Source of the DNA: Chitinophaga oryzae
GTDB lineage: Bacteria > Bacteroidota > Bacteroidia > Chitinophagales > Chitinophagaceae
Reading direction: 5' to 3'
Length of the DNA stretch: 64,000 nt
NCBI RefSeq assembly: GCF_012516375.2
Contig: NZ_CP051204.2
Location: 3,162,001-3,226,000, forward strand
The position numbers and the translations under genes are program-made. Below are positions 10,530 to 63,995 of this stretch, in pieces. The notes beneath the pieces are model-generated. The model searched no databases, was not told where the DNA came from, and saw nothing but the letters and a program-made list of their open reading frames with translations. The stretch's first letter is position 1; each line of letters begins with the position of its first letter.

Positions 10530-10841
10530 TTAAGCGAGGCATTCTGCGGACGCGGCGCTGGCCGAATAATCCAATGCTTTGCAAATGCAACGGTTGACAG
10601 AATTGGTTTCGCAAATGCCTGCTGCATTTGGATCACCTGGTACGGCAATGGTGCAGGACCGCTGGTCGCGACAGCGTCCGCCGCCGCTACCGTCAGCGCA
10701 GATGCCGTCAGAACATACAAGGCCGGGAGGGCATTCCATGTCGGATTGACAGCCGGCACCACCGGATACAGCTTTCATTTGTTCCCTGCTAAGGATTTCC
10801 CGCGCGCCGAGTTCCAGCGCCTTCAACTTTAAGGCTTTCAT
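10530..10841 (-). CDS. Cysteine-rich peptide precursor with double-glycine leader
   Basis: A 103-residue precursor. Residues 1-28 form a leader of the Bacteroidota double-glycine type (LELGAREILSREQMKAVSGG), which is normally cut after Gly-Gly by a C39 peptidase-exporter. The rest, about 75 residues, contains ten cysteines, an even number, in a pattern including CPPGLVC and CIC, rich in Gly, Asp and Ser. This suggests a compact fold with up to five disulfides. It is encoded 68 bases downstream of the C39-like/VKOR/DsbA-like fusion on the same strand, which could form those disulfides. No exporter gene of the C39 type is in the window. Toxin, bacteriocin or signalling roles are all possible; no homologue with known activity was recognised. 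Confidence 0.75.
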   Translation of the reverse strand: MKALKLKALELGAREILSREQMKAVSGGAGCQSDMECPPGLVCSDGICADGSGGGRCRDQRSCTIAVPGDPNAAGICETNSVNRCICKALDYSASAASAECLA

Positions 10842-10860
10842 GCATTAAATTTTGATGATT

Positions 10861-10901
10861 AAAAAATGGATGCCCCTATAAGGCCGGGGCCATCAGGCCT
10901 T
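10861..10901 (-). promoter_or_regulatory. Possible attenuator hairpin between the VKOR fusion and the peptide gene
   Basis: On the minus strand AAGGCC (10896-10901) pairs with GGCCTT (10880-10885), followed 13 bases later by a run of six T. It could reduce read-through or mark a processing site between the enzyme and peptide cistrons. A 5-bp alternative stem (GCCCC with GGGGC) overlaps it. The evidence is weak. Confidence 0.3.
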
Positions 10902-10909
10902 AATTTTAC

Positions 10910-12586
10910 TTACACGTTGAGGATGTATTTCAGGTCTTTGATTTGATAGATGTCGGGAAGCTGGTATAATGCAGTGGTTGTCTGGTCAGCAGACGGCATA
11001 GAGAGGAAAAAAGTGGGCGTGGCCTTGATGCCCGCCCTGTCGCACCAGCTTCTCATCGCCTCCACTTTCTTTCCCTGCCTGGCCATCGCGCCGTCAGGGA
11101 GCATGTACTTACCGGAGAATTGCCGGTAGTCTTTCGTGGGTGACAGGTACCAGCCATCGAGCACTTCTTTGAGCTGCCGGTTATCTCCGCTTTCAGCTAC
11201 GGCCAGAAAATGTTTGACAGGGAGGCTGCGGTGATCATCTTCTTTATTGGTGGCGGTGAATATAATCTGTACCTGTAAATCGTCGCTACCATGCAGTAGT
11301 TCCTCAATAGGCGCATGTGCTTTCGAACATGGCCCGCAGTAAGGGTTACAAACTTTGACCAGTTTTATACGGGCATCGGGATTGCCCAGGGTGATACCCA
11401 GTCCGGTGGTGCTTTCTTCCACGGCTTTTTGTTTGGCTAACAGCGCTTCAAATATCTGCTGGTTATGTTTCAGCTGATTAAACTTCATCTTGTTTTGCCG
11501 CGCCTCCCTGGAAGCGCGGAAAGCGGGCATCAGTTGCGTGATCACCAGGAATGGCAACAAGTAAGACAGCGCAAAGGAGATACCGGTAAACAGTGTGATG
11601 GATGATAAAGGCGCAAGCGTATGCCATTTTCCCGCAATTGGGATCAGTAATTGCAGCAAAAGAATGAACTGTACCGACAAACAAAGCAGGCACCATTGTT
11701 TGGCTACTTTCCACTGATAGTAGACAGAAAAGATAGTATAAGGCGCTGCCAGGACTGTTAGCCCCGACATGACCAGCAGCGACTGTACGCTGGTGATGCC
11801 GGAGAACAACATAAACAGGAGGCTGCCGGTAAAATAACTGGTGCCAATGATACTCCAGCTGATGCCGGCAATTTTAGACGCTTTGGAGTGGACCACGGCG
11901 CCACAATTTACTTTTTTTCCGGCGGTACAGATCTGTTGCAGTAAAGGATTATACTGATCGGTTTCATACCAGAGCAACAGGAAGCCCACCATCGCACCCA
12001 GCACGGCAGTGAGTGTAAAACCAACAGGCAGCAGGGCGTTCCATCCCTCCAGGAAAAGGGCTGCCGCCATAGCGAGCAGGCTGATGAATGGCAGGATGAA
12101 TAGTTTCGCATACTGCAGTGTCAACTGCCGTTTTTCAGCATTGATATGTTGTTGGTAGTCCGCTTCCCCTGCATGTTCACCTGCTTCCGCCAACAGCACC
12201 AATCCCATATAGTTCTTCTGAAAGTTTTCTGTAGCGGCGGTCTTCCAGCTGCGGGTCTCCTTGTCATAATAAGTTACCTGCCGTTCATCTATTTTCCGGA
12301 CAACCGTAAAATAAACGCCAATGCCATCATGACTGCTGATTTGTGTCAGAAAAGGCGCCGGCAGTTGCGGTAATTGCTCAGCATCAAATTTCGCCAGGAG
12401 ATTTTCCACGCCGAATTTCGAAAGGATGTCACTGACACTGAGTATACCGGGAAAGTCAGGGTGAGATTCCATCTCTGTGGCCAGCGTTGTAAGAGAGACC
12501 TTTACCTTTAAATGATCGAGCAGCAGTTTGGTGGACGCTACTTCACCGCTAACAGGGAATATTAGTTGCTTCAAACGGGATAACAT
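10910..12586 (-). CDS. Fusion of degenerate C39-like domain, VKOR domain and DsbA-like thioredoxin domain
   Basis: Inner-membrane disulfide-forming enzyme of 558 residues. Residues 1-140 align with the C39 peptidase fold (VSLTTLATEMESHPDFPG, LPAPFLTQI, YDKETRSWK), but the catalytic Cys is replaced (GEVAST) and the HYVVL-type His is a Tyr (GVYFTVV), so it should bind rather than cut. Residues about 165-360 are the VKOR domain, with several membrane helices, the loop cysteines C-T-A-G-K-K-V-N-C and the membrane CLLC motif. Residues about 395-558 are a thioredoxin/DsbA-like domain with YCGPC. VKOR proteins use quinone to re-oxidise a thioredoxin partner, here fused. The adjacent double-glycine peptide with ten cysteines is the obvious substrate. 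Confidence 0.88.
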   Translation of the reverse strand: MLSRLKQLIFPVSGEVASTKLLLDHLKVKVSLTTLATEMESHPDFPGILSVSDILSKFGVENLLAKFDAEQLPQLPAPFLTQISSHDGIGVYFTVVRKIDERQVTYYDKETRSWKTAATENFQKNYMGLVLLAEAGEHAGEADYQQHINAEKRQLTLQYAKLFILPFISLLAMAAALFLEGWNALLPVGFTLTAVLGAMVGFLLLWYETDQYNPLLQQICTAGKKVNCGAVVHSKASKIAGISWSIIGTSYFTGSLLFMLFSGITSVQSLLVMSGLTVLAAPYTIFSVYYQWKVAKQWCLLCLSVQFILLLQLLIPIAGKWHTLAPLSSITLFTGISFALSYLLPFLVITQLMPAFRASREARQNKMKFNQLKHNQQIFEALLAKQKAVEESTTGLGITLGNPDARIKLVKVCNPYCGPCSKAHAPIEELLHGSDDLQVQIIFTATNKEDDHRSLPVKHFLAVAESGDNRQLKEVLDGWYLSPTKDYRQFSGKYMLPDGAMARQGKKVEAMRSWCDRAGIKATPTFFLSMPSADQTTTALYQLPDIYQIKDLKYILNV

Positions 12587-55385: not shown

Positions 55386-58300
55386 ATGTACATCCCTACA
55401 CTCATCCGCTCCGGATGGTCCTGTTTATTGTGGTGCCTGTTGCTGGCCTTGCCGGTGAGCGCGCAGTTCAGTGTGACAGACTTTTCAAACAGTCCGCTTC
55501 AAACTGCTATTACGCGCGACAAGTTCAACAACATCTATTCGATTTCCTATAACGCCGGAAGTTCGCGTAGTGTTATTACGAAGTATATTAACGGTAATCC
55601 GGGCAACCTGAACTGGATTTACGAAAGTCCGGCGTATGTTCCGGATGGTGGCTACTACTGGGGAATTGCCGTCAACGCGTATGGAGATGTATATTTCACG
55701 GCTACCGACGGGAGCGTGGGATCAGGCCGGATTATGCGTCTACGTTTTAACGGCGCGGGCTACCTGCCGGTGGAGACAGTGAGGTCCGGCACCGGCTACA
55801 TTAGCCTGGCCTTTGATCAGCAGGAGAACCTGGTAGTAATGGAAGAAGACATGGTTTCAGGGCGTGCCCGGTTGATGAGATATAACAAAGGCAATGAGTC
55901 CGGGCCGGGCACGGTGCTGTACGAGATGCAGGACAACATGTTTACGTCCTATCCCACAGGGCTGGCGGTTGATAAGAACAATACGATCTATTTCACCGGT
56001 TTTTGGGATTTCTCCAATAAAAACAATATTTACCGGTTGAAGAACGGGGCGGCGGCGCCAACGAAACATGGCTCCGGGACCTTCACTTCCCTTACATGCG
56101 ACGACGCCGGTTACCTCTATGCGGTGGATGCCGGTTCCGGCAGCGGGACATCCGGCGTGATCTGGCGGTTTGATTCCGAAATGCTGTTTCCTGACTATGT
56201 TCAGGGCGGCATCAGCGCTACCATATCCAATATTGATCCGCCGCAGCTGCCGTGGGGAATTATAGTGGACAGAGCCGCATCGACGATCTATTATAACCAG
56301 TACACCGCTCCGGGCATCAGGAAATTAACAGCCACGCCGGTCACCGTGACAGAGATGTCGCTGATGACTACCAGTCCCGGTAACGTTTCCAGCGTACGCT
56401 ACAAAGTCACGTTCAATCCGAATCTGACTGCCCCGCCACCAAAGGAGGCGTTCTCGGTGAGCACTACGGGTACTGTTTCCGGCGCCGCCGTTACACAGGT
56501 ACAATGGAATCTCGACTACTTTACTGTGGACGTCAGTACCGGCACAGGTGATGGCACGCTGGCGCTGGTAATGAACGGCACTAACATGTTGAACCCTGTC
56601 AACAGCGCCCCTGTCACCGGCGCGGCCTATGTCATTGACAGAACGCCGCCTTCCGGCACACTGACGATTAATAACGGCGCCGCCTATACCAACAGTACAA
56701 CCGTGACACTGGATATCACCGCCAGCGACGCTTCTCCGGACATGACCATGGAGTTTTCCAACGACGCTGTAGCGTACAGCGCTGCGCAACCCGTCACCTC
56801 CCGGGTGAGCTGGACGTTGCCACCGGGAGAAGGTAAGAAGACGGTATATATGAAAGTGAAAGACAAGGCGGGCAATTATCTGATCATTCAGAAAGATATC
56901 ACGATCGATACACACGCGCCATCCGTCTCCTTCACGGCCGGCCCTCCCATGATTACAACGGGCACGCAGGCGATGTTTACCTTCACGGCCGGCGAGCCAG
57001 CTACCTATGAGGCTCGCCTCGATGGCGGTACTATCAGCAGTGCCACCAGCCCGCTGCTGCTTACCGGTATAAGCGTCGCCCCACATGTGCTGGAGATCAG
57101 GGCTACCGATCCGGCCGGCAACCAGTCTGCATGGAAACCCTACAGCTGGACCGTGGAAACGCTGCCCGTAGTAACGGGAATGGATGTACCCGTCAACGGA
57201 TATTACAATGCAGGCGCTACGCTCGATTTTCTCGTACGATATGATGTACCGGTACTGGTAGCAGGCACGCCGTGTTTACCGTTAACCATCGGCGCCGCTA
57301 ATGTGAAGGCCCTGTATACCGGCGGCACCGGCACGAAGGAACTGAGCTTCCGGTATACCGTAGTGCCCGGAGATGAAGCGACAGACGGGATCTCTACAGG
57401 AGCAACGCTGGAGCTGAACGGCGGTAATATCTGGAGCACCGGCGGCGCAGATGCCTCCCTGTCGCTCAACGGCGACCGCACACTGGCCAGCGTGAAAATA
57501 CATACGCTTCCGCCGTCGGCTGCCCTGTCTGTCAGCCAATCACAGGTCAACGCCCCTTTTACCCTGACGATTACTTTCAGTGAAGGTGTAACAGGACTGG
57601 CGAAAGAGGATATACAAATATCCAACGGAGAAGTGAGCAATATTGTCACTGCGAACAATATCCTTTATACGGCCACCGTCAGCAATTTCAACACCGGGCC
57701 GATACAGATTTCGCTGCCGGCAAATGCGGCTGTCAATGCATACAACACAGGAAATACCGCCTCCAATACCGTGAATATGACGGCGGACGTGACCAGGCCC
57801 GTGGTATCACAGGTAGCCGTTCCCCCCAATGACTATTACCATGTGGCAGACAGGATCGATTTTGAAGTTGCTTACTCTGAAAACGTGTCTGTCAATACAA
57901 CGCTGGGTAAGCCTTCCCTGGGCATTACCATCGGCTCAACGGTGAGACAGGCAGAGTATCTGAGCATTAATTCTTCCAACAGGCTGGTCTTTAGTTATGA
58001 GATCATGCCAGGCGACGAGGATATGGACGGAATCACGATAGACGCCCTCCACTTAAACGGTAGTACTGTTCGTGACGACGCAGGAAACGATGCGGACCTG
58101 ACGCTGAACGGTGTTGGAAACACCACGTTTGTCAGGGTGAACACCACCCCGGTCAGCTGTATTCTTTCTATGCCCAAAACGGCTTTCAACATGCCTTTCC
58201 TCCTGACGCTGAGTTTCAGCGAGCCGATAGTAGGATTGACAGTATCGGACCTCAGCGTGTTGAATACCACTGTCAGCAGCCTGGCGGCGGTCAACGACAG

Positions 58301-61300
58301 TACTTTCACCATGCTCCTTACTCCCACAGGTGAACGATCATATACAGTGTCTTTACCGTCAGGAACAGTGACCCAGAAAGCAGGCGGTAATATTAACTTA
58401 CCGTCGAACACACTCACATTTACCTGGGACGTAACGCCACCCAAAGTGAGCAGCGTGGCGGTTCCTTCCGGTGGATACTACGGCACAGGAAAATCACTGG
58501 AATTCTATGTAACCATGGACGAGCCGGTAACGATAACGGGAAGGCCTACGCTGCCTGTCGTTATCGGCAGCAAAACCGTACTTGCTGAATATATCAGTAA
58601 CACCTCCGGAACGGTATTGCTTTTCCGGTATATCGTACAGGACGGAGACACGGACCTGGACGGCATCGCTGTGGGCAGTGGTCTCAGCCTGAATGCCGGC
58701 AGCCTGAAGGATGCCGCCGGTAACGACGCGCTGCCACCTGTACGCAATGTAGGCAGTACTTCGCAGGTGTTTGTGCATACCGTCGCTCCCACAGTAACAT
58801 TGAGCACTACGGCGATATCTCCCCTGAATCATGATTTTACCATAACAGCCACGTTCTCCGAAAGGGTAGACGGACTGGCGGCAACGGCATTCAGCGCTAC
58901 AAAAGCCGATATCAGCAATCTGCAAACAACAGATAATAAGACCTACACTGCGCTGGTGAAGCCCAGGGAGAGCGGCGCCGTCATCATCTCGCTGCCGGCC
59001 GGTGCAGCAACCAACGTAGCCGGTACGGGTAACAGCGCGTCCAATACCCTGAATGTGACCTATGACGCCACGCCGGCGGAAGTGTCCGGTGTAGACGTGC
59101 CCTCCGGCGGCGTTTATGCTGCCGGCAGCATCATGAACTTTGTGGTATGGTATAATGAACCCGTTGCCGTAACAGGCGCGCCCAGCCTGTCTCTGACCAT
59201 CGGTAATAAGGTGGTGCAGGCCCGCTACTTAAATACGGCGGGAGACCGCGTGTTCTTCGTTTACCAGGTGGTACAGGGAGATATGGACACAGATGGCATT
59301 ACCCTGGATAATACCATTCAACTGAATGGCGGTACTATTAAAGATGATGCCGGTAATAATGCAGACCTGACGTTACGCAGTATACCCGCTACGACAGGCA
59401 TACTTGTCAATACCGCTACACCGGCGGTGACGTTGTCTGCGGATGCCGCGTCACCGGTCGGCAGTGCGTTTACGATCACTACTACCTTCAGCGAAGTAGT
59501 CACCGGTCTCACCGGTGTTGCTTTCCAGGTGACCAATGGTACTATTTCCAACCTGGCGACGGCCGATAACCGGACCTATACGGCGACCATTTCTCCGGCG
59601 GCAGACGGCATTGTCACCATCAGCCTGCCGGCCGGCGCCGCTAAGAATAATGCCAATACCGGCAATACGACATCCAATACCCTCACGCTGGCCTACGACG
59701 CTACAGCACCGGAAATCACGAATGTTTCCGTTCCGGGCAGAGGCTACTACAAAGCCGGTACGGCACTGCGCTTTACAGTGAACGTGTCGGAACCGGTGAC
59801 CGTAACAGGCGGGCCATCCATCCCCATTATCATCGGTAATGAGACCGTACAGGCTACCTACACCGGTGGCTCCGGTACAACCGCCCTGGGTTTCCTTTAT
59901 GTGGTGAAGGACGGTGACTATGATATGGACGGGATCATTACAGGACCAGCGCTCCAGCTGAATGGCGGTACCCTGAAAGATGCGGCTGGCAACAACGCCT
60001 TGCTGAGATTAAATAATGTGGGCAGCACCAGCGAGGTGCTTGTCAATACCCGGCAGCCCGGCGTAACCCTGAGCTCTACTGCTGCCAATCCGACTACACA
60101 GGCATTCCCGCTGACGGCCACCTTCAGCGAAGCTGTCACCGGGTTTACATCCGATGACATGAACGCGGTCAATGCCACCATCACCCAGCTGCAAACCAGT
60201 GATAATATTACCTATACCGTGCTGGTAACACCCGTGGCCGATGGCCCGGTGACCGTACAGATACCGGCAAATGTTGTAAAGAGCCAATCGGGCAATGATA
60301 ACCTGGCATCGAATGTTTTCAGCATTCAGGCAGATATGACTGCCCCCGTCGTGACCAGCGTAAGTGTTCCGTCTCCCGGATACTATAAAGCCGGTCAGCA
60401 GCTCGTTTTCACCTTAAATATGTCAGAACCGGTAACGGCCACCGCTGCCACCGGGTTAACGGTATATATCGGTGGGACGGTGGTACCGGCCACCCTTACC
60501 GGTGGTACGGGAACGGCTACACTGGAATTCAGCTGCACTGTCCAGGATGGTTTCATGGACATGGACGGCATTACCCTGGGAAGAGTGCTCAACGGCACAG
60601 TGAAAGATATAGCCGGTAACGTCGCTGGTCCAATCCTGGTTAACATTGGTAACACCAGCGGCGTGTTTGTCAATACACAACATCCAACGGTTTCCGTGGC
60701 TACGCCTGCTGTCAGCCCTGTGCGTCAATCTTTCCCGGTCACCATCACTTTCAGCGAGCGGGTAACCGGATTTACAGCGAACGGCATTACAGTCACCAAC
60801 GCTACCGTGAGCCAGTTACAAACCACCGATAATATCATTTATACAACAACCATAACGCCTGCGGCAGATGGCGCCATAACGGTGCAGGTGCCTGCCGGCG
60901 CCGCACAGAACATAGGCCTGAATGACAACATAGCGTCCAATCTGCTCAGCCTTCAGGCAAAAATAACAGCACCGGTAGTCGCCCGTATAGACGTGCCCGG
61001 TAGTGGTTATTACAGAGCCGGGCAGCCACTGAACTTCAGCGTTCACCTGTCAGAACCGGTGAGCGTAACAGGCACACCATCCATACCGGTAATCATCGGT
61101 AACCAGACCGTACAGGCTATTTATACCGGCGGCACGGGAACGGCTACACTGCAATTCCGCTATACCGTTCAGCAGGGTGATATGGACCTGGACGGCATTA
61201 GCGTGGGCAGCGCCATCGTACTGAATGGCGGCGCGCTGAAAGACGCTGCGGGCAATAATGCTAACCTGGCATTGATGAACATCGGCAATGCCAGCGGCGT

Positions 61301-63995
61301 ATTGGTGAATACACAACATCCTGCTGCCGTTATCAGCACCACTGCTGTCAGCCCCGTACGGCAAGCCTTCCTGCTGACCATTACTTTCAGCGAGGCGGTG
61401 ACCGGATTTACGGCGAGCGGCATTACAGCCACCAACGCTACGGTGAGCCAGTTACAAACCACCGATAATATTACTTATACTGTTTTGATTACGCCTTCCG
61501 CAGATGGCTCCCTGAGCCTCCGGGTGCCTTCCGGCGTGGCGCAGAATAAAGCGGGCAACGACAACCAGTCCTCCAATACGATCGGGCTTACCGCGGATAT
61601 AACCGTTCCTGCGGTCACCCGTGTGGACGTACCTGCCAATGGCGCGTATAAAGCCGGGCAGCCACTGAACTTCAGCGTTTACCTGTCAGAACCGGTGAGC
61701 GTGACAGGCACCCCCTCCATACCGGTGATCATCGGTAACCAGACCGTACAGGCCATTTACACCGGCGGTACGGGAACGGCTTCACTGCAATTCCGCTATA
61801 CCGTTCAGCAGGGTGATATGGACCTGGACGGCATCAGCGTGGGCAACGCCATCGTACTGAATGGCGGCGCGCTGAAAGACGCAGCGGGCAACAATGCTAA
61901 CCCGGCATTGATGAACATAGGCAACACCAGCGGCGTATTGGTGAATACACAACATCCTGCTGCCGTTATCAGCACCACTGCTGTCAGCCCCGTACGGCAA
62001 GCCTTCCCGCTGACCATTACTTTCAGCGAGGCGGTGACCGGATTTACGGCGAGCGGCATTACAGCCACCAACGCTACGGTGAGCCAGTTACAAACCACCG
62101 ACAATATTACTTATACTGTTTTGATTACGCCTTCCGCAGATGGCTCCCTGAGCCTCCGGGTGCCTTCCGGCGTGGCGCAGAATAAAGCGGGCAACGACAA
62201 CCAGTCCTCCAATACGATCGGGCTTACCGCGGATATAACCGTTCCTGCGGTCACCCGTGTGAACGTACCTGCCAACGGCGCGTATAAAGCCGGGCAGCCG
62301 CTGGACTTCAGCGTTTACCTGTCAGAACCGGTGAGCGTGACAGGCACACCCTCCATACCGGTGATCATCGGTAACCAGACCGTACAGGCCATTTACACCG
62401 GCGGCACGGGAACGGCTACACTGCAATTCCGCTATACCGTTCAGCAGGGTGATATGGACCTGGACGGCATCAGCGTGGGCAACGCTATCGTACTGAATGG
62501 CGGCGCGCTGAAAGATGCTGCCGGTAACAACGCGGCGCCGGCACTGCACCAGGTACCTGCCACCGATGCTATACTCGTGAAAACAAACCGTCCGGGAGTG
62601 ACGCTGTCTTCCGGCAGCCAGGGCCGTATCAATACACCGTTTACCGTCAACCTGGCGTTCACGGACGCTGTTCGCGGCCTGGCTGTTACCGGCATACAGG
62701 TCAACAATGGCGTCGCCAGTCAGTTGCAAACCACAGATAATATTCATTACACCGTGCTGATCACACCGGCCGCGGATGGTCAGGTGATCGTGCAATTGCC
62801 TGCGGACGTGGCTTCAGACATAGCGGGTAACGGCAACCTTGCCTCCGGCCAGCTTGACCTGACGTATGATGCAACAGCGCCCGTTATTCGTCAGCAATCC
62901 TTCGACATTAATGATAATAGTCCTGCCGGCGCCGTCGTGGGGCAGCTGCAGGGCACGGATGCATCCGGTACGGTGCAGGGCTGGACACTGGTGACCGATG
63001 GCTCCGGAGGCGCATTGTCTCTCGCTGCCAACGGCCGCATCACCGTAAAAGACAATACGCTGCTGCGCGCTGTCGCCGGGAAAACCATCACCCTGCAGGT
63101 AACCGCCAGCGACGGTCTTAATACCAGTGCAGCCGTTCCCGTTACCGTGAACGTCCGGATCTCCTATGTCAACAAACAACCGGTGATGGACCCCGTAGCG
63201 GATGTTTATCTCTGCGCCACCACCGAAGCACAAACGATACAACTCACCGGTGTATCGCCGGTGGAACCGGACCAGCATTATACCATCAGCCTGGCGTCCA
63301 GCCAGCCTTATTTCGATGTGCTTAAAGCTGATGTAGCTGCCAATACCATCCGCTACCAGCTGAAACCCGGCGTGGGCAGCGGCTCCGCTGTTGTTACCAT
63401 CACCCTGAAAGATGACGGCGGCACGGCCAACGGCGGTAAAGACACCTACAGCCAGACGTTCTTCCTGACCGTCAATGCGCTGCCGGCTGTCAGCATCAGC
63501 AGCGATAAAGGCGGTACCATCTCCAAAGGTGATGTCGTTACACTGACGGCAACCGGGGCCGCTGCCTACAGCTGGAAGCCCGCCGCCGGCGCCAATGGAA
63601 GTCTGCAGGAACCTACGCTGACGGTAAAACCGCCAGCTGACGCTACCTACCAGGTGACAGGCACCAGCGCGGCCGGTTGCAGCGCCAGCGCCACCATCAG
63701 CATCCGGGTAACGGACGACTATAAACTGGATGCTACCAACCTGCTCACGCCCAACGGCGACGGTAAAAACGACCGCTGGACCATCCGCAACCTGGACAGC
63801 TATCCCGACAACGAAGTGAAGATATTCGACCGCGCAGGCAGACTGGTATACCAGCGCCGTAACTATAGCAACGACTGGGACGGCACGCTGAACGGCCATC
63901 CGCTGGCAGAAGGCACCTATTATTATGTGCTCACCGTCAACGGTACTTCCCGTGTGTGGAAAGGATTTATCACCATTATCCGGAACGATCAATAG
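55386..63995 (+). CDS. Giant repetitive surface protein with beta-propeller, Ig-like repeats and type IX sorting domain
   Basis: A 2,869-residue secreted protein. Signal peptide 1-26 (LALPVSA-Q). Residues about 27-315 look like an NHL-type beta-propeller (GLAVDKNNTIYFTG, GIIVDRAASTIYY). One or two Ig-like domains follow at about 320-590. Nine repeats of about 208-216 residues span about 590-2496. Each has a half with V-D-V-P-x-x-G-x-Y-x-A-G and a calcium-loop-like GDMDLDGI, and a half with FSEAVTGF and D-x-x-x-Y-T-V. A cadherin-like domain, further Ig-like segments and a gliding-motility C-terminal domain (about 2780-2869: LLTPNGDGKND, DWDG, GFITIIRND) end the protein. It should be exported by the type IX system and displayed or released as an adhesin. 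Confidence 0.9.
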   Translation: MYIPTLIRSGWSCLLWCLLLALPVSAQFSVTDFSNSPLQTAITRDKFNNIYSISYNAGSSRSVITKYINGNPGNLNWIYESPAYVPDGGYYWGIAVNAYGDVYFTATDGSVGSGRIMRLRFNGAGYLPVETVRSGTGYISLAFDQQENLVVMEEDMVSGRARLMRYNKGNESGPGTVLYEMQDNMFTSYPTGLAVDKNNTIYFTGFWDFSNKNNIYRLKNGAAAPTKHGSGTFTSLTCDDAGYLYAVDAGSGSGTSGVIWRFDSEMLFPDYVQGGISATISNIDPPQLPWGIIVDRAASTIYYNQYTAPGIRKLTATPVTVTEMSLMTTSPGNVSSVRYKVTFNPNLTAPPPKEAFSVSTTGTVSGAAVTQVQWNLDYFTVDVSTGTGDGTLALVMNGTNMLNPVNSAPVTGAAYVIDRTPPSGTLTINNGAAYTNSTTVTLDITASDASPDMTMEFSNDAVAYSAAQPVTSRVSWTLPPGEGKKTVYMKVKDKAGNYLIIQKDITIDTHAPSVSFTAGPPMITTGTQAMFTFTAGEPATYEARLDGGTISSATSPLLLTGISVAPHVLEIRATDPAGNQSAWKPYSWTVETLPVVTGMDVPVNGYYNAGATLDFLVRYDVPVLVAGTPCLPLTIGAANVKALYTGGTGTKELSFRYTVVPGDEATDGISTGATLELNGGNIWSTGGADASLSLNGDRTLASVKIHTLPPSAALSVSQSQVNAPFTLTITFSEGVTGLAKEDIQISNGEVSNIVTANNILYTATVSNFNTGPIQISLPANAAVNAYNTGNTASNTVNMTADVTRPVVSQVAVPPNDYYHVADRIDFEVAYSENVSVNTTLGKPSLGITIGSTVRQAEYLSINSSNRLVFSYEIMPGDEDMDGITIDALHLNGSTVRDDAGNDADLTLNGVGNTTFVRVNTTPVSCILSMPKTAFNMPFLLTLSFSEPIVGLTVSDLSVLNTTVSSLAAVNDSTFTMLLTPTGERSYTVSLPSGTVTQKAGGNINLPSNTLTFTWDVTPPKVSSVAVPSGGYYGTGKSLEFYVTMDEPVTITGRPTLPVVIGSKTVLAEYISNTSGTVLLFRYIVQDGDTDLDGIAVGSGLSLNAGSLKDAAGNDALPPVRNVGSTSQVFVHTVAPTVTLSTTAISPLNHDFTITATFSERVDGLAATAFSATKADISNLQTTDNKTYTALVKPRESGAVIISLPAGAATNVAGTGNSASNTLNVTYDATPAEVSGVDVPSGGVYAAGSIMNFVVWYNEPVAVTGAPSLSLTIGNKVVQARYLNTAGDRVFFVYQVVQGDMDTDGITLDNTIQLNGGTIKDDAGNNADLTLRSIPATTGILVNTATPAVTLSADAASPVGSAFTITTTFSEVVTGLTGVAFQVTNGTISNLATADNRTYTATISPAADGIVTISLPAGAAKNNANTGNTTSNTLTLAYDATAPEITNVSVPGRGYYKAGTALRFTVNVSEPVTVTGGPSIPIIIGNETVQATYTGGSGTTALGFLYVVKDGDYDMDGIITGPALQLNGGTLKDAAGNNALLRLNNVGSTSEVLVNTRQPGVTLSSTAANPTTQAFPLTATFSEAVTGFTSDDMNAVNATITQLQTSDNITYTVLVTPVADGPVTVQIPANVVKSQSGNDNLASNVFSIQADMTAPVVTSVSVPSPGYYKAGQQLVFTLNMSEPVTATAATGLTVYIGGTVVPATLTGGTGTATLEFSCTVQDGFMDMDGITLGRVLNGTVKDIAGNVAGPILVNIGNTSGVFVNTQHPTVSVATPAVSPVRQSFPVTITFSERVTGFTANGITVTNATVSQLQTTDNIIYTTTITPAADGAITVQVPAGAAQNIGLNDNIASNLLSLQAKITAPVVARIDVPGSGYYRAGQPLNFSVHLSEPVSVTGTPSIPVIIGNQTVQAIYTGGTGTATLQFRYTVQQGDMDLDGISVGSAIVLNGGALKDAAGNNANLALMNIGNASGVLVNTQHPAAVISTTAVSPVRQAFLLTITFSEAVTGFTASGITATNATVSQLQTTDNITYTVLITPSADGSLSLRVPSGVAQNKAGNDNQSSNTIGLTADITVPAVTRVDVPANGAYKAGQPLNFSVYLSEPVSVTGTPSIPVIIGNQTVQAIYTGGTGTASLQFRYTVQQGDMDLDGISVGNAIVLNGGALKDAAGNNANPALMNIGNTSGVLVNTQHPAAVISTTAVSPVRQAFPLTITFSEAVTGFTASGITATNATVSQLQTTDNITYTVLITPSADGSLSLRVPSGVAQNKAGNDNQSSNTIGLTADITVPAVTRVNVPANGAYKAGQPLDFSVYLSEPVSVTGTPSIPVIIGNQTVQAIYTGGTGTATLQFRYTVQQGDMDLDGISVGNAIVLNGGALKDAAGNNAAPALHQVPATDAILVKTNRPGVTLSSGSQGRINTPFTVNLAFTDAVRGLAVTGIQVNNGVASQLQTTDNIHYTVLITPAADGQVIVQLPADVASDIAGNGNLASGQLDLTYDATAPVIRQQSFDINDNSPAGAVVGQLQGTDASGTVQGWTLVTDGSGGALSLAANGRITVKDNTLLRAVAGKTITLQVTASDGLNTSAAVPVTVNVRISYVNKQPVMDPVADVYLCATTEAQTIQLTGVSPVEPDQHYTISLASSQPYFDVLKADVAANTIRYQLKPGVGSGSAVVTITLKDDGGTANGGKDTYSQTFFLTVNALPAVSISSDKGGTISKGDVVTLTATGAAAYSWKPAAGANGSLQEPTLTVKPPADATYQVTGTSAAGCSASATISIRVTDDYKLDATNLLTPNGDGKNDRWTIRNLDSYPDNEVKIFDRAGRLVYQRRNYSNDWDGTLNGHPLAEGTYYYVLTVNGTSRVWKGFITIIRNDQ
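57157..62875 (+). repeat. Nine tandem protein-coding repeats of about 636 bp
   Basis: Repeat units begin near 57157, 57792, 58440, 59070, 59705, 60345, 60970, 61605 and 62241. At the protein level each starts with a V-x-V-P-x-x-G-Y-Y-x-A-G-like strand. Divergence falls from the first to the last units, as expected for an array growing at its 3' side. Confidence 0.85.
61025..62520 (+). repeat. Nearly identical 636-bp direct repeats in the surface protein gene
   Basis: The unit at 61025-61660 and the one at 61661-62296 are exactly 636 bp and differ at about seven of 212 codons at the protein level. A third copy (62297 to about 62520) matches until the array diverges. This indicates recent duplication or gene conversion and is a hot spot for recombination and for assembly error. 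Confidence 0.9.

Follow-up and report, generated by a model that had tools for sequence, protein, structure and literature searches.

The idea of a dedicated oxidase for the double-glycine peptides of Bacteroidota is not new in itself, as one has been proposed for the bacteroidetocins. For these class IIf bacteriocins, Coyne et al. (2019; PMC6671954) propose a thiol oxidoreductase encoded in the locus as the enzyme that forms the disulfides, and the toxins are less active when either this enzyme or a five-transmembrane (five-TM) protein is deleted. Among other described systems, the VKOR-thioredoxin fusions of the SsVKOR type join a quinone oxidase core with four VKOR cysteines to a C-terminal thioredoxin-fold domain, and HlyB, an ATP-binding cassette (ABC) transporter, has a C39-like domain (CLD; 3zua) which shows the C39 fold without proteolysis and serves in substrate recruitment (PMC6363468). 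In this study, we describe a gene pair from Chitinophaga oryzae, located in a 64,000-nucleotide stretch of contig NZ_CP051204.2 (positions 3,162,001 to 3,226,000; hereafter the window): a fusion of a degenerate C39-like domain, a VKOR domain and a thioredoxin-like domain, followed by a cysteine-rich precursor peptide with a double-glycine leader. On the full account given below, we put at roughly 0.7 the probability that the two genes make up a system dedicated to placing disulfides in a secreted, cysteine-rich peptide. Its parts, in window coordinates, are the following.

10910..12586, minus strand: C39-like/VKOR/thioredoxin fusion, 558 aa (open reading frame (ORF), Pfam, alignment, AlphaFold2 model)
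12176..12568, minus strand: degenerate C39-like domain (residues 7-137), without catalytic Cys or His
12047..12106, minus strand: predicted extra transmembrane segment A (approximately residues 161-180), ahead of the canonical VKOR helices (alignment-averaged hydropathy, 121 homologues)
11645..12016, minus strand: VKOR domain (residues 191-314) with C220/C228 and C299/C302
11003..11401, minus strand: DsbA/thioredoxin-like domain (residues 396-528) with CNPYCGPC
10530..10841, minus strand: double-glycine precursor peptide, 103 aa (ORF, comparison with Chitinophaga eiseniae)
10758..10841, minus strand: leader, 28 aa, with Leu-12, Ser-11, Met-7, Val-4, Gly-2 and Gly-1
10533..10757, minus strand: core, 75 aa, with ten Cys in a four-Cys part, a Gly-rich linker and a six-Cys part

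All three domains of the fusion are recognized by Pfam above the respective cut-off: Peptidase_C39 at residues 16-135 (37.8 bits, cut-off 22), VKOR (PF07884) at residues 191-314 (54.8 bits, cut-off 27.5) and Thioredoxin_4 at residues 396-528 (23.8 bits, cut-off 23.2). The VKOR profile and both cysteine pairs (C220/C228 and C299-L-L-C302) make it a VKOR-family member, fold and sequence profile mark its N-terminal domain as C39-like, and the thioredoxin part carries C413-NPY-C417-GP-C420; the AlphaFold2 model has a mean pLDDT of 92.0 and a pTM of 0.77. The precursor follows 68 bp downstream on the same strand. Its leader is of the double-glycine type, with hydrophobic residues at -12, -7 and -4 and glycines at -2/-1, and it is the positions -12, -7 and -4 that occupy the groove of the LahT C39 domain (PMC6363468). 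The same pair is found in C. eiseniae (locus L024), with a fusion 89% identical to that of the window and a precursor that has kept its frame; its length changes are in-frame, part of the core has changed, and the ten cysteines align. The ORFs, coordinates and profile matches agree with an initial annotation of this DNA, which had described a fusion of C39-like, VKOR (CLLC and loop cysteines) and DsbA-like parts directly upstream of a 103-residue double-glycine precursor with ten cysteines.

As a check, the initial annotation had also named the co-occurrence of such fusions with cysteine-rich double-glycine precursors in Bacteroidota genomes, and in many loci it is seen. A scan of a species-genome collection yielded 192 relatives, and 79 loci, recognized as Bacteroidota by their titles, were fetched; three of these (L052, L067 and L099) have less than 700 bp of downstream sequence and were dropped from the linkage set. 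Our strict test asked for a double-glycine leader pattern (a widened version of a first, narrower one) and at least four cysteines, on the same strand and within 700 bp downstream of the fusion. Such a peptide was found for 45 of the 76 fusion loci, as compared with 10 of 414 control ORFs from the same loci (Fisher p 2e-33, a guide only, since related loci are not independent), and for 0/76 on the opposite strand. With a relaxed leader pattern, which was written after inspecting the strict misses and is therefore descriptive, the counts rise to 64/76 for the fusions and 20/414 for the controls, with 1/76 on the opposite strand. A second set of 40 loci, which may overlap the first, gives 17 by the strict and 21 by the relaxed test, and none on the opposite strand. 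Canonical VKOR loci, a small set drawn from other classes of the phylum, have a double-glycine peptide in 0/22 (strict) and 1/22 (relaxed) cases; here, 24 of 30 loci were kept, 22 of them in the peptide test, after L172, L176 and L193 had been excluded as not canonical and L173, L181 and L182 because no ORF was found. In the sets tested, the peptide pairing is thus recurrent and goes with the C39-bearing fusions, not with canonical VKORs.

The pairing also recurs within the host. Its genome, a single 8.36-Mb contig, encodes four C39-VKOR-thioredoxin fusions, each with a leader-type peptide gene downstream on the same strand at a distance of at most 2.9 kb. The peptide gene directly follows the fusion in the window, L007 and L006; in L005, ORFs resembling glycosyltransferases and LanC intervene, and the distance is 2.9 kb. 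A search of this genome found no DsbB match and no VKOR except for the four fusions.

The C39-like domain has evidently lost its peptidase activity site. In the alignment, the catalytic Cys and His occur together in 0/123 fusions, including that of the window: at the Cys column, 122 sequences are gapped and one has Thr, a Cys one column further on is present in 11, none of which has the His, and the His is kept in two (L053 and L115). The initial annotation had assumed this loss, and no intact pair was found that would speak against it; other C39 motifs are kept in the fusions despite it. A fold comparison was needed, as phmmer against PDB sequences matched the whole fusion to three unrelated proteins (SAKe6 chains) and the VKOR part to none; HlyB 3zua is in the Foldseek list (E 2.4e-4). 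That the dead domain docks the double-glycine leader appears fairly probable to us, and by analogy with live C39 domains it would hold the leader as they do.

By contrast with this loss of the C39 catalytic pair, the redox cysteines 220, 228, 299, 302, 417 and 420 are invariant in the 121 fusions that remain when two of the 123, under 500 aa, are set aside, a count of related sequences and not of independent cases. The cores linked to the fusions are very diverse, and nearly all have an even number of cysteines. The 57 core matches represent 55 distinct cores; one with a single Cys was excluded, and 52 of the other 54 have 4, 6, 8 or 10 (p 8e-14 against equal odds, on the assumption that cores are independent). 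Ten linked precursors were scanned for known families. One scored above the cut-off, four gave weak matches below it (WAP, arthropod-toxin families and LcnG-beta) and five had no match. The precursor above the cut-off, from the host locus L007 (10318-10635, beside the fusion), has an LDL-receptor class A module as its core (PF00057; 44.4 bits, cut-off 24.1; E 1.9e-11). This fold needs three disulfides, and LDL-A, WAP and cystine-knot folds are all disulfide-built. The window core matches Dickkopf_N, EB, DUF7107 and Toxin_12 in Pfam, all under cut-off. By eye, the cores of L034, L036, L038 and L098 have a cystine-knot-like spacing (C..C..CC..C..C); L038 and one of the two L034 peptides have weak arthropod toxin matches under cut-off, L036 and L098 none. 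The window leader resembles the NCBIfam leader families TIGR04149 and NF047798 at scores under cut-off (14.8 of 25 and 16.8 of 23.5), but TIGR04149 is named for radical-SAM-modified peptides.

Whether a docked leader could bring the core to the oxidase is decided by membrane topology, which the initial annotation had not considered. Five helices in the usual VKOR orientation would put the membrane between the N-terminal domain and the active sites. Averaged hydropathy over 121 homologues shows six main hydrophobic segments, one of which, segment A, precedes the usual first VKOR helix; at positions 178-182 its often polar linker to the next segment, B, is gapped in 18-32% of homologues. Lys and Arg number 18.5 (minimum 13) on the membrane side that carries the C39-like domain, the Cys loops and the thioredoxin domain, as opposed to 1.0 (maximum 3) on the other side, and this holds for all 121 fusions, with loop lengths of about 104 and 35 residues on the two sides. 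In the VKOR core alone, fusions have 6.1 Lys/Arg on the active-site side and 1.0 on the opposite side, while the 24 canonical VKORs have 1.5 and 5.9; the active-site side is the richer one in 121/121 fusions, the opposite side in 23/24 canonical proteins. The sole canonical-type exception, L186 (161 aa; 9 versus 3), may be another inverted VKOR. A strongly hydrophobic, signal-like stretch occurs in the first 45 residues of just one of the 121 fusions (L006), and export of a 140-residue N-terminal domain without a signal would be unusual. Because of the distribution of Lys and Arg and the extra segment A, we assign a cytoplasmic location to the C39-like domain, the thioredoxin domain and both cysteine pairs of VKOR; judged from these sequence features, we lean slightly towards such an inverted arrangement, in which oxidation would precede export.

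Genes for export are frequent in the neighbourhood. In the 79 loci (fetched stretches of up to 10 kb on each side, E ≤ 1e-5), ORFs resembling peptidase-containing ABC transporters (PCATs) are found in 56, of which 51, counted by eye, are at E below 1e-100; TlpA-like ORFs are found in 54 and HlyD-like ORFs in 50. At least one TlpA-like ORF, that of L064, has a signal-like N-terminus, and these proteins perhaps act in a later periplasmic step. Elsewhere in the host genome, six long ORFs (714-750 aa) have strong C39 matches and are taken as PCATs; the transporter for the window peptide would be one of these.

Put together, the account we favour runs as follows. The precursor would be made and its leader would sit in the dead C39-like domain; the C-terminal thioredoxin domain, on the same side of the membrane, would oxidize the core cysteines, and would itself be reoxidized by VKOR, with the electrons going to quinone. 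The precursor would then pass to a separate PCAT, whose live C39 domain would cut after the two glycines and export the core. A small protein would fit, in its folded state, into the cavity of PCAT1. We are most confident that the fusion is a dedicated oxidase, which is very probable whichever way it is oriented. More tentatively, and with the odds somewhat against it in this complete form, we propose a widespread inverted VKOR class in which a degenerate C39 domain would hold the leader in the cytoplasm while the fused thioredoxin domain and quinone-coupled VKOR write disulfides into cores ranging from an LDL-receptor A module to cystine-knot-like peptides, export of the folded product by a PCAT coming afterwards. 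The idea of the initial annotation that the leader guides disulfide formation is partly supported: the recurrent pairing, the missing catalytic pair and the mostly even cysteine numbers of the cores are seen in the sequences, as are the retained redox cysteines and the charge pattern; docking, oxidation and the order of events are inferred.

If the VKOR part had the ordinary orientation instead, which we consider rather unlikely, oxidation would take place in the periplasm after cleavage and export by the PCAT, and the cytoplasmic C39-like domain would recruit the precursor or the transporter. The known bacterial VKOR and DsbB catalysts do serve the periplasm, the single long helix at residues 144-209 of the window model would fit an odd number of crossings, and TlpA-like oxidoreductase ORFs are often near (54/79), that of L064 being signal-like. 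Yet this orientation would break, in 121/121 fusions, the positive-inside pattern that 23/24 canonical VKORs obey, and the strongly hydrophobic segment A with its indel-rich, often polar linker to B makes two crossings likelier than one. For human VKOR in Escherichia coli, insertion is reportedly improved when the first extracytoplasmic loop is stripped of positive residues, although the same paper (PMC11208910) adds that what counts may be how many charges there are overall. Slightly less likely still is that the C39-like domain does not bind the leader but is a PCAT docking module or a folding scaffold, and that oxidation is not leader-guided; PCAT-like ORFs adjoin in 56/79 loci, and the degenerate domain of HlyB is described as contacting only unfolded HlyA (PMC6363468). 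An enzyme that keeps the precursor reduced or reshuffles its bonds is improbable: the CGPC motif of 73/121 fusions and the predicted cytoplasmic orientation would suit such a reductase or isomerase, but all four VKOR cysteines for quinone-driven oxidation are invariant, and in the known VKOR family it is thiol oxidation that quinone drives.

Several observations weigh against the account of a leader-guided oxidase in the cytoplasm. The AlphaFold2 model of the window fusion draws residues 144-209 (A and B) as one helix, with no hairpin; homologue L102, which has a longer linker, gives two helices with a break. A cytoplasmic oxidase would work against a reducing compartment, and CGPC is in ordinary thioredoxin a reducing-type motif. 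The 121 fusions are partly near-identical, and one of the search patterns behind the first set included the NPYC motif, so that the invariance of C417 and C420 is partly due to selection. The window has no PCAT-like ORF at positions 500-24000. Lastly, the relaxed linkage test was failed by 19/40 loci of the second set and by 12/76 of the first; nine of these 12 have variant or displaced peptides by eye, and in L025, L035 and L049 no linked peptide was found in the stretches searched. Fusions without a linked precursor, which the initial annotation had named as the case against it, are therefore few (3/76).

Compared with the described systems, the fusion-linked peptides share with the bacteroidetocins (PMC6671954) the occurrence in Bacteroidota, double-glycine leaders on peptides with cysteines, and a PCAT; they differ in their leaders, which have 15-16 aa in bacteroidetocins, 28 in the window and at least 18 in the other fusion-linked peptides examined. 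Bacteroidetocins are defined by a 15-16 aa leader together with a five-TM protein, a thiol oxidoreductase and a PCAT in one locus. With its 28-aa leader and no PCAT- or TlpA-like ORF found at 500-24000, the window pair falls outside this definition, though no sequence search was aimed at the five-TM protein. Hoylesella oralis ATCC 33269 has a bacteroidetocin-type set (L206, 4274-8707: a 218-aa membrane protein, a 54-aa peptide with a 15-aa double-glycine leader, a 185-aa thioredoxin-like protein and a PCAT) separate from its two fusion loci, and PF07884 matches only the two fusions, so that the bacteroidetocin and fusion enzymes differ. The L206 peptide shows two Cys, so that it is at most a candidate for bacteroidetocin C. 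We also considered whether the peptide of the H. oralis fusion locus L064 might be bacteroidetocin C and its fusion the 'TM protein' of Coyne et al., and rejected this: it has a 27-aa leader and four Cys, bacteroidetocin C is said to have an uneven number of Cys and all bacteroidetocins leaders of 15-16 aa, and a locus with the bacteroidetocin gene set lies elsewhere in the genome. Relatives of the L064 peptide were found in 4/301 genomes at E ≤ 0.01, including H. oralis itself, the others at 0.003-0.005; two of these match loci were inspected and showed nothing bacteroidetocin-like.

The fusions differ from the SsVKOR type in having the N-terminal C39-like domain, segment A, reversed Lys/Arg and the linkage to double-glycine peptides, and in their thioredoxin motif, CGPC in 73/121 C39 fusions as compared with CPHC in 10/15 long canonical VKOR members examined. 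The C39-like domain of HlyB belongs to an ABC transporter, while that of the window is fused to an oxidase. As for membrane topology, a 2017 study by Hibender and colleagues reportedly, going by its title, found that the topology of the Aeropyrum pernix VKOR promotes disulfide formation in two subcellular compartments; this protein is archaeal, and we know of no C39 domain or peptide partner for it. In the open-licence literature, we found no paper that connects VKOR with C39 in Bacteroidetes, with a double-glycine leader, with bacteriocin disulfides or with an inverted topology; among the titles shown in longer result lists none is on this fusion, and a term search of the main text of a VKOR phylogeny paper (PMC4555120) gave no Bacteroid-, C39 or peptidase. 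Relative to the literature searched, the enzyme type, the dead C39 receptor fused to an oxidase and the predicted inverted VKOR appear to be new.

The wider family is large. With E ≤ 0.001 as the limit, a protein search gave 577 matches, of which 120 were listed, and among evenly drawn genomes a match at this threshold, in some cases partial, was found in 28/395 of the class and 25/301 of the H. oralis family. The Emticicia plasmid pEMTOL02 (L196, 7932-17542) carries two annotated vitamin K epoxide reductase family genes, and after each of them come a small gene and one that is TlpA-like; plasmids can thus carry the system. L005 (7793-14586) and L195 (7911-15724) are fusion loci with LanC-like and glycosyltransferase-like genes, which suggests that some fusion-linked peptides are further modified. 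Precursor-like genes in L006 (9219-9416) and L097 (9769-9897) look frame-shifted, with leader and Cys-rich stretch in different frames, and the fusion genes of L114 (1456-3113; overlapping frames) and L092 (ORF of only 389 aa) look broken. Separate C39 and VKOR genes in genome G290 at first resembled a natural split, but in L114 the frames overlap and segment A is interrupted, which points to a probable broken copy; the case was not used as evidence. In the window, the genes further downstream of the pair, for an ECF sigma factor, a FecR protein and then, by eye, SusC- and SusD-like proteins, look unrelated to it. At 55386-63995 lies a 2869-aa ORF that ends near the window edge.

If our account is true, a bacterium without a general DsbB or VKOR has disulfide writers of its own that are dedicated to particular peptides, and leader-controlled disulfide formation is possible on the cytoplasmic face of the membrane. 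The ability of such bacteria to secrete mini-proteins rich in disulfides would then have an explanation. It would likewise provide a search handle for many uncharacterized peptides, given the 192 relatives in species genomes and the 577 protein matches, and a portable tool for making disulfide-rich peptides.
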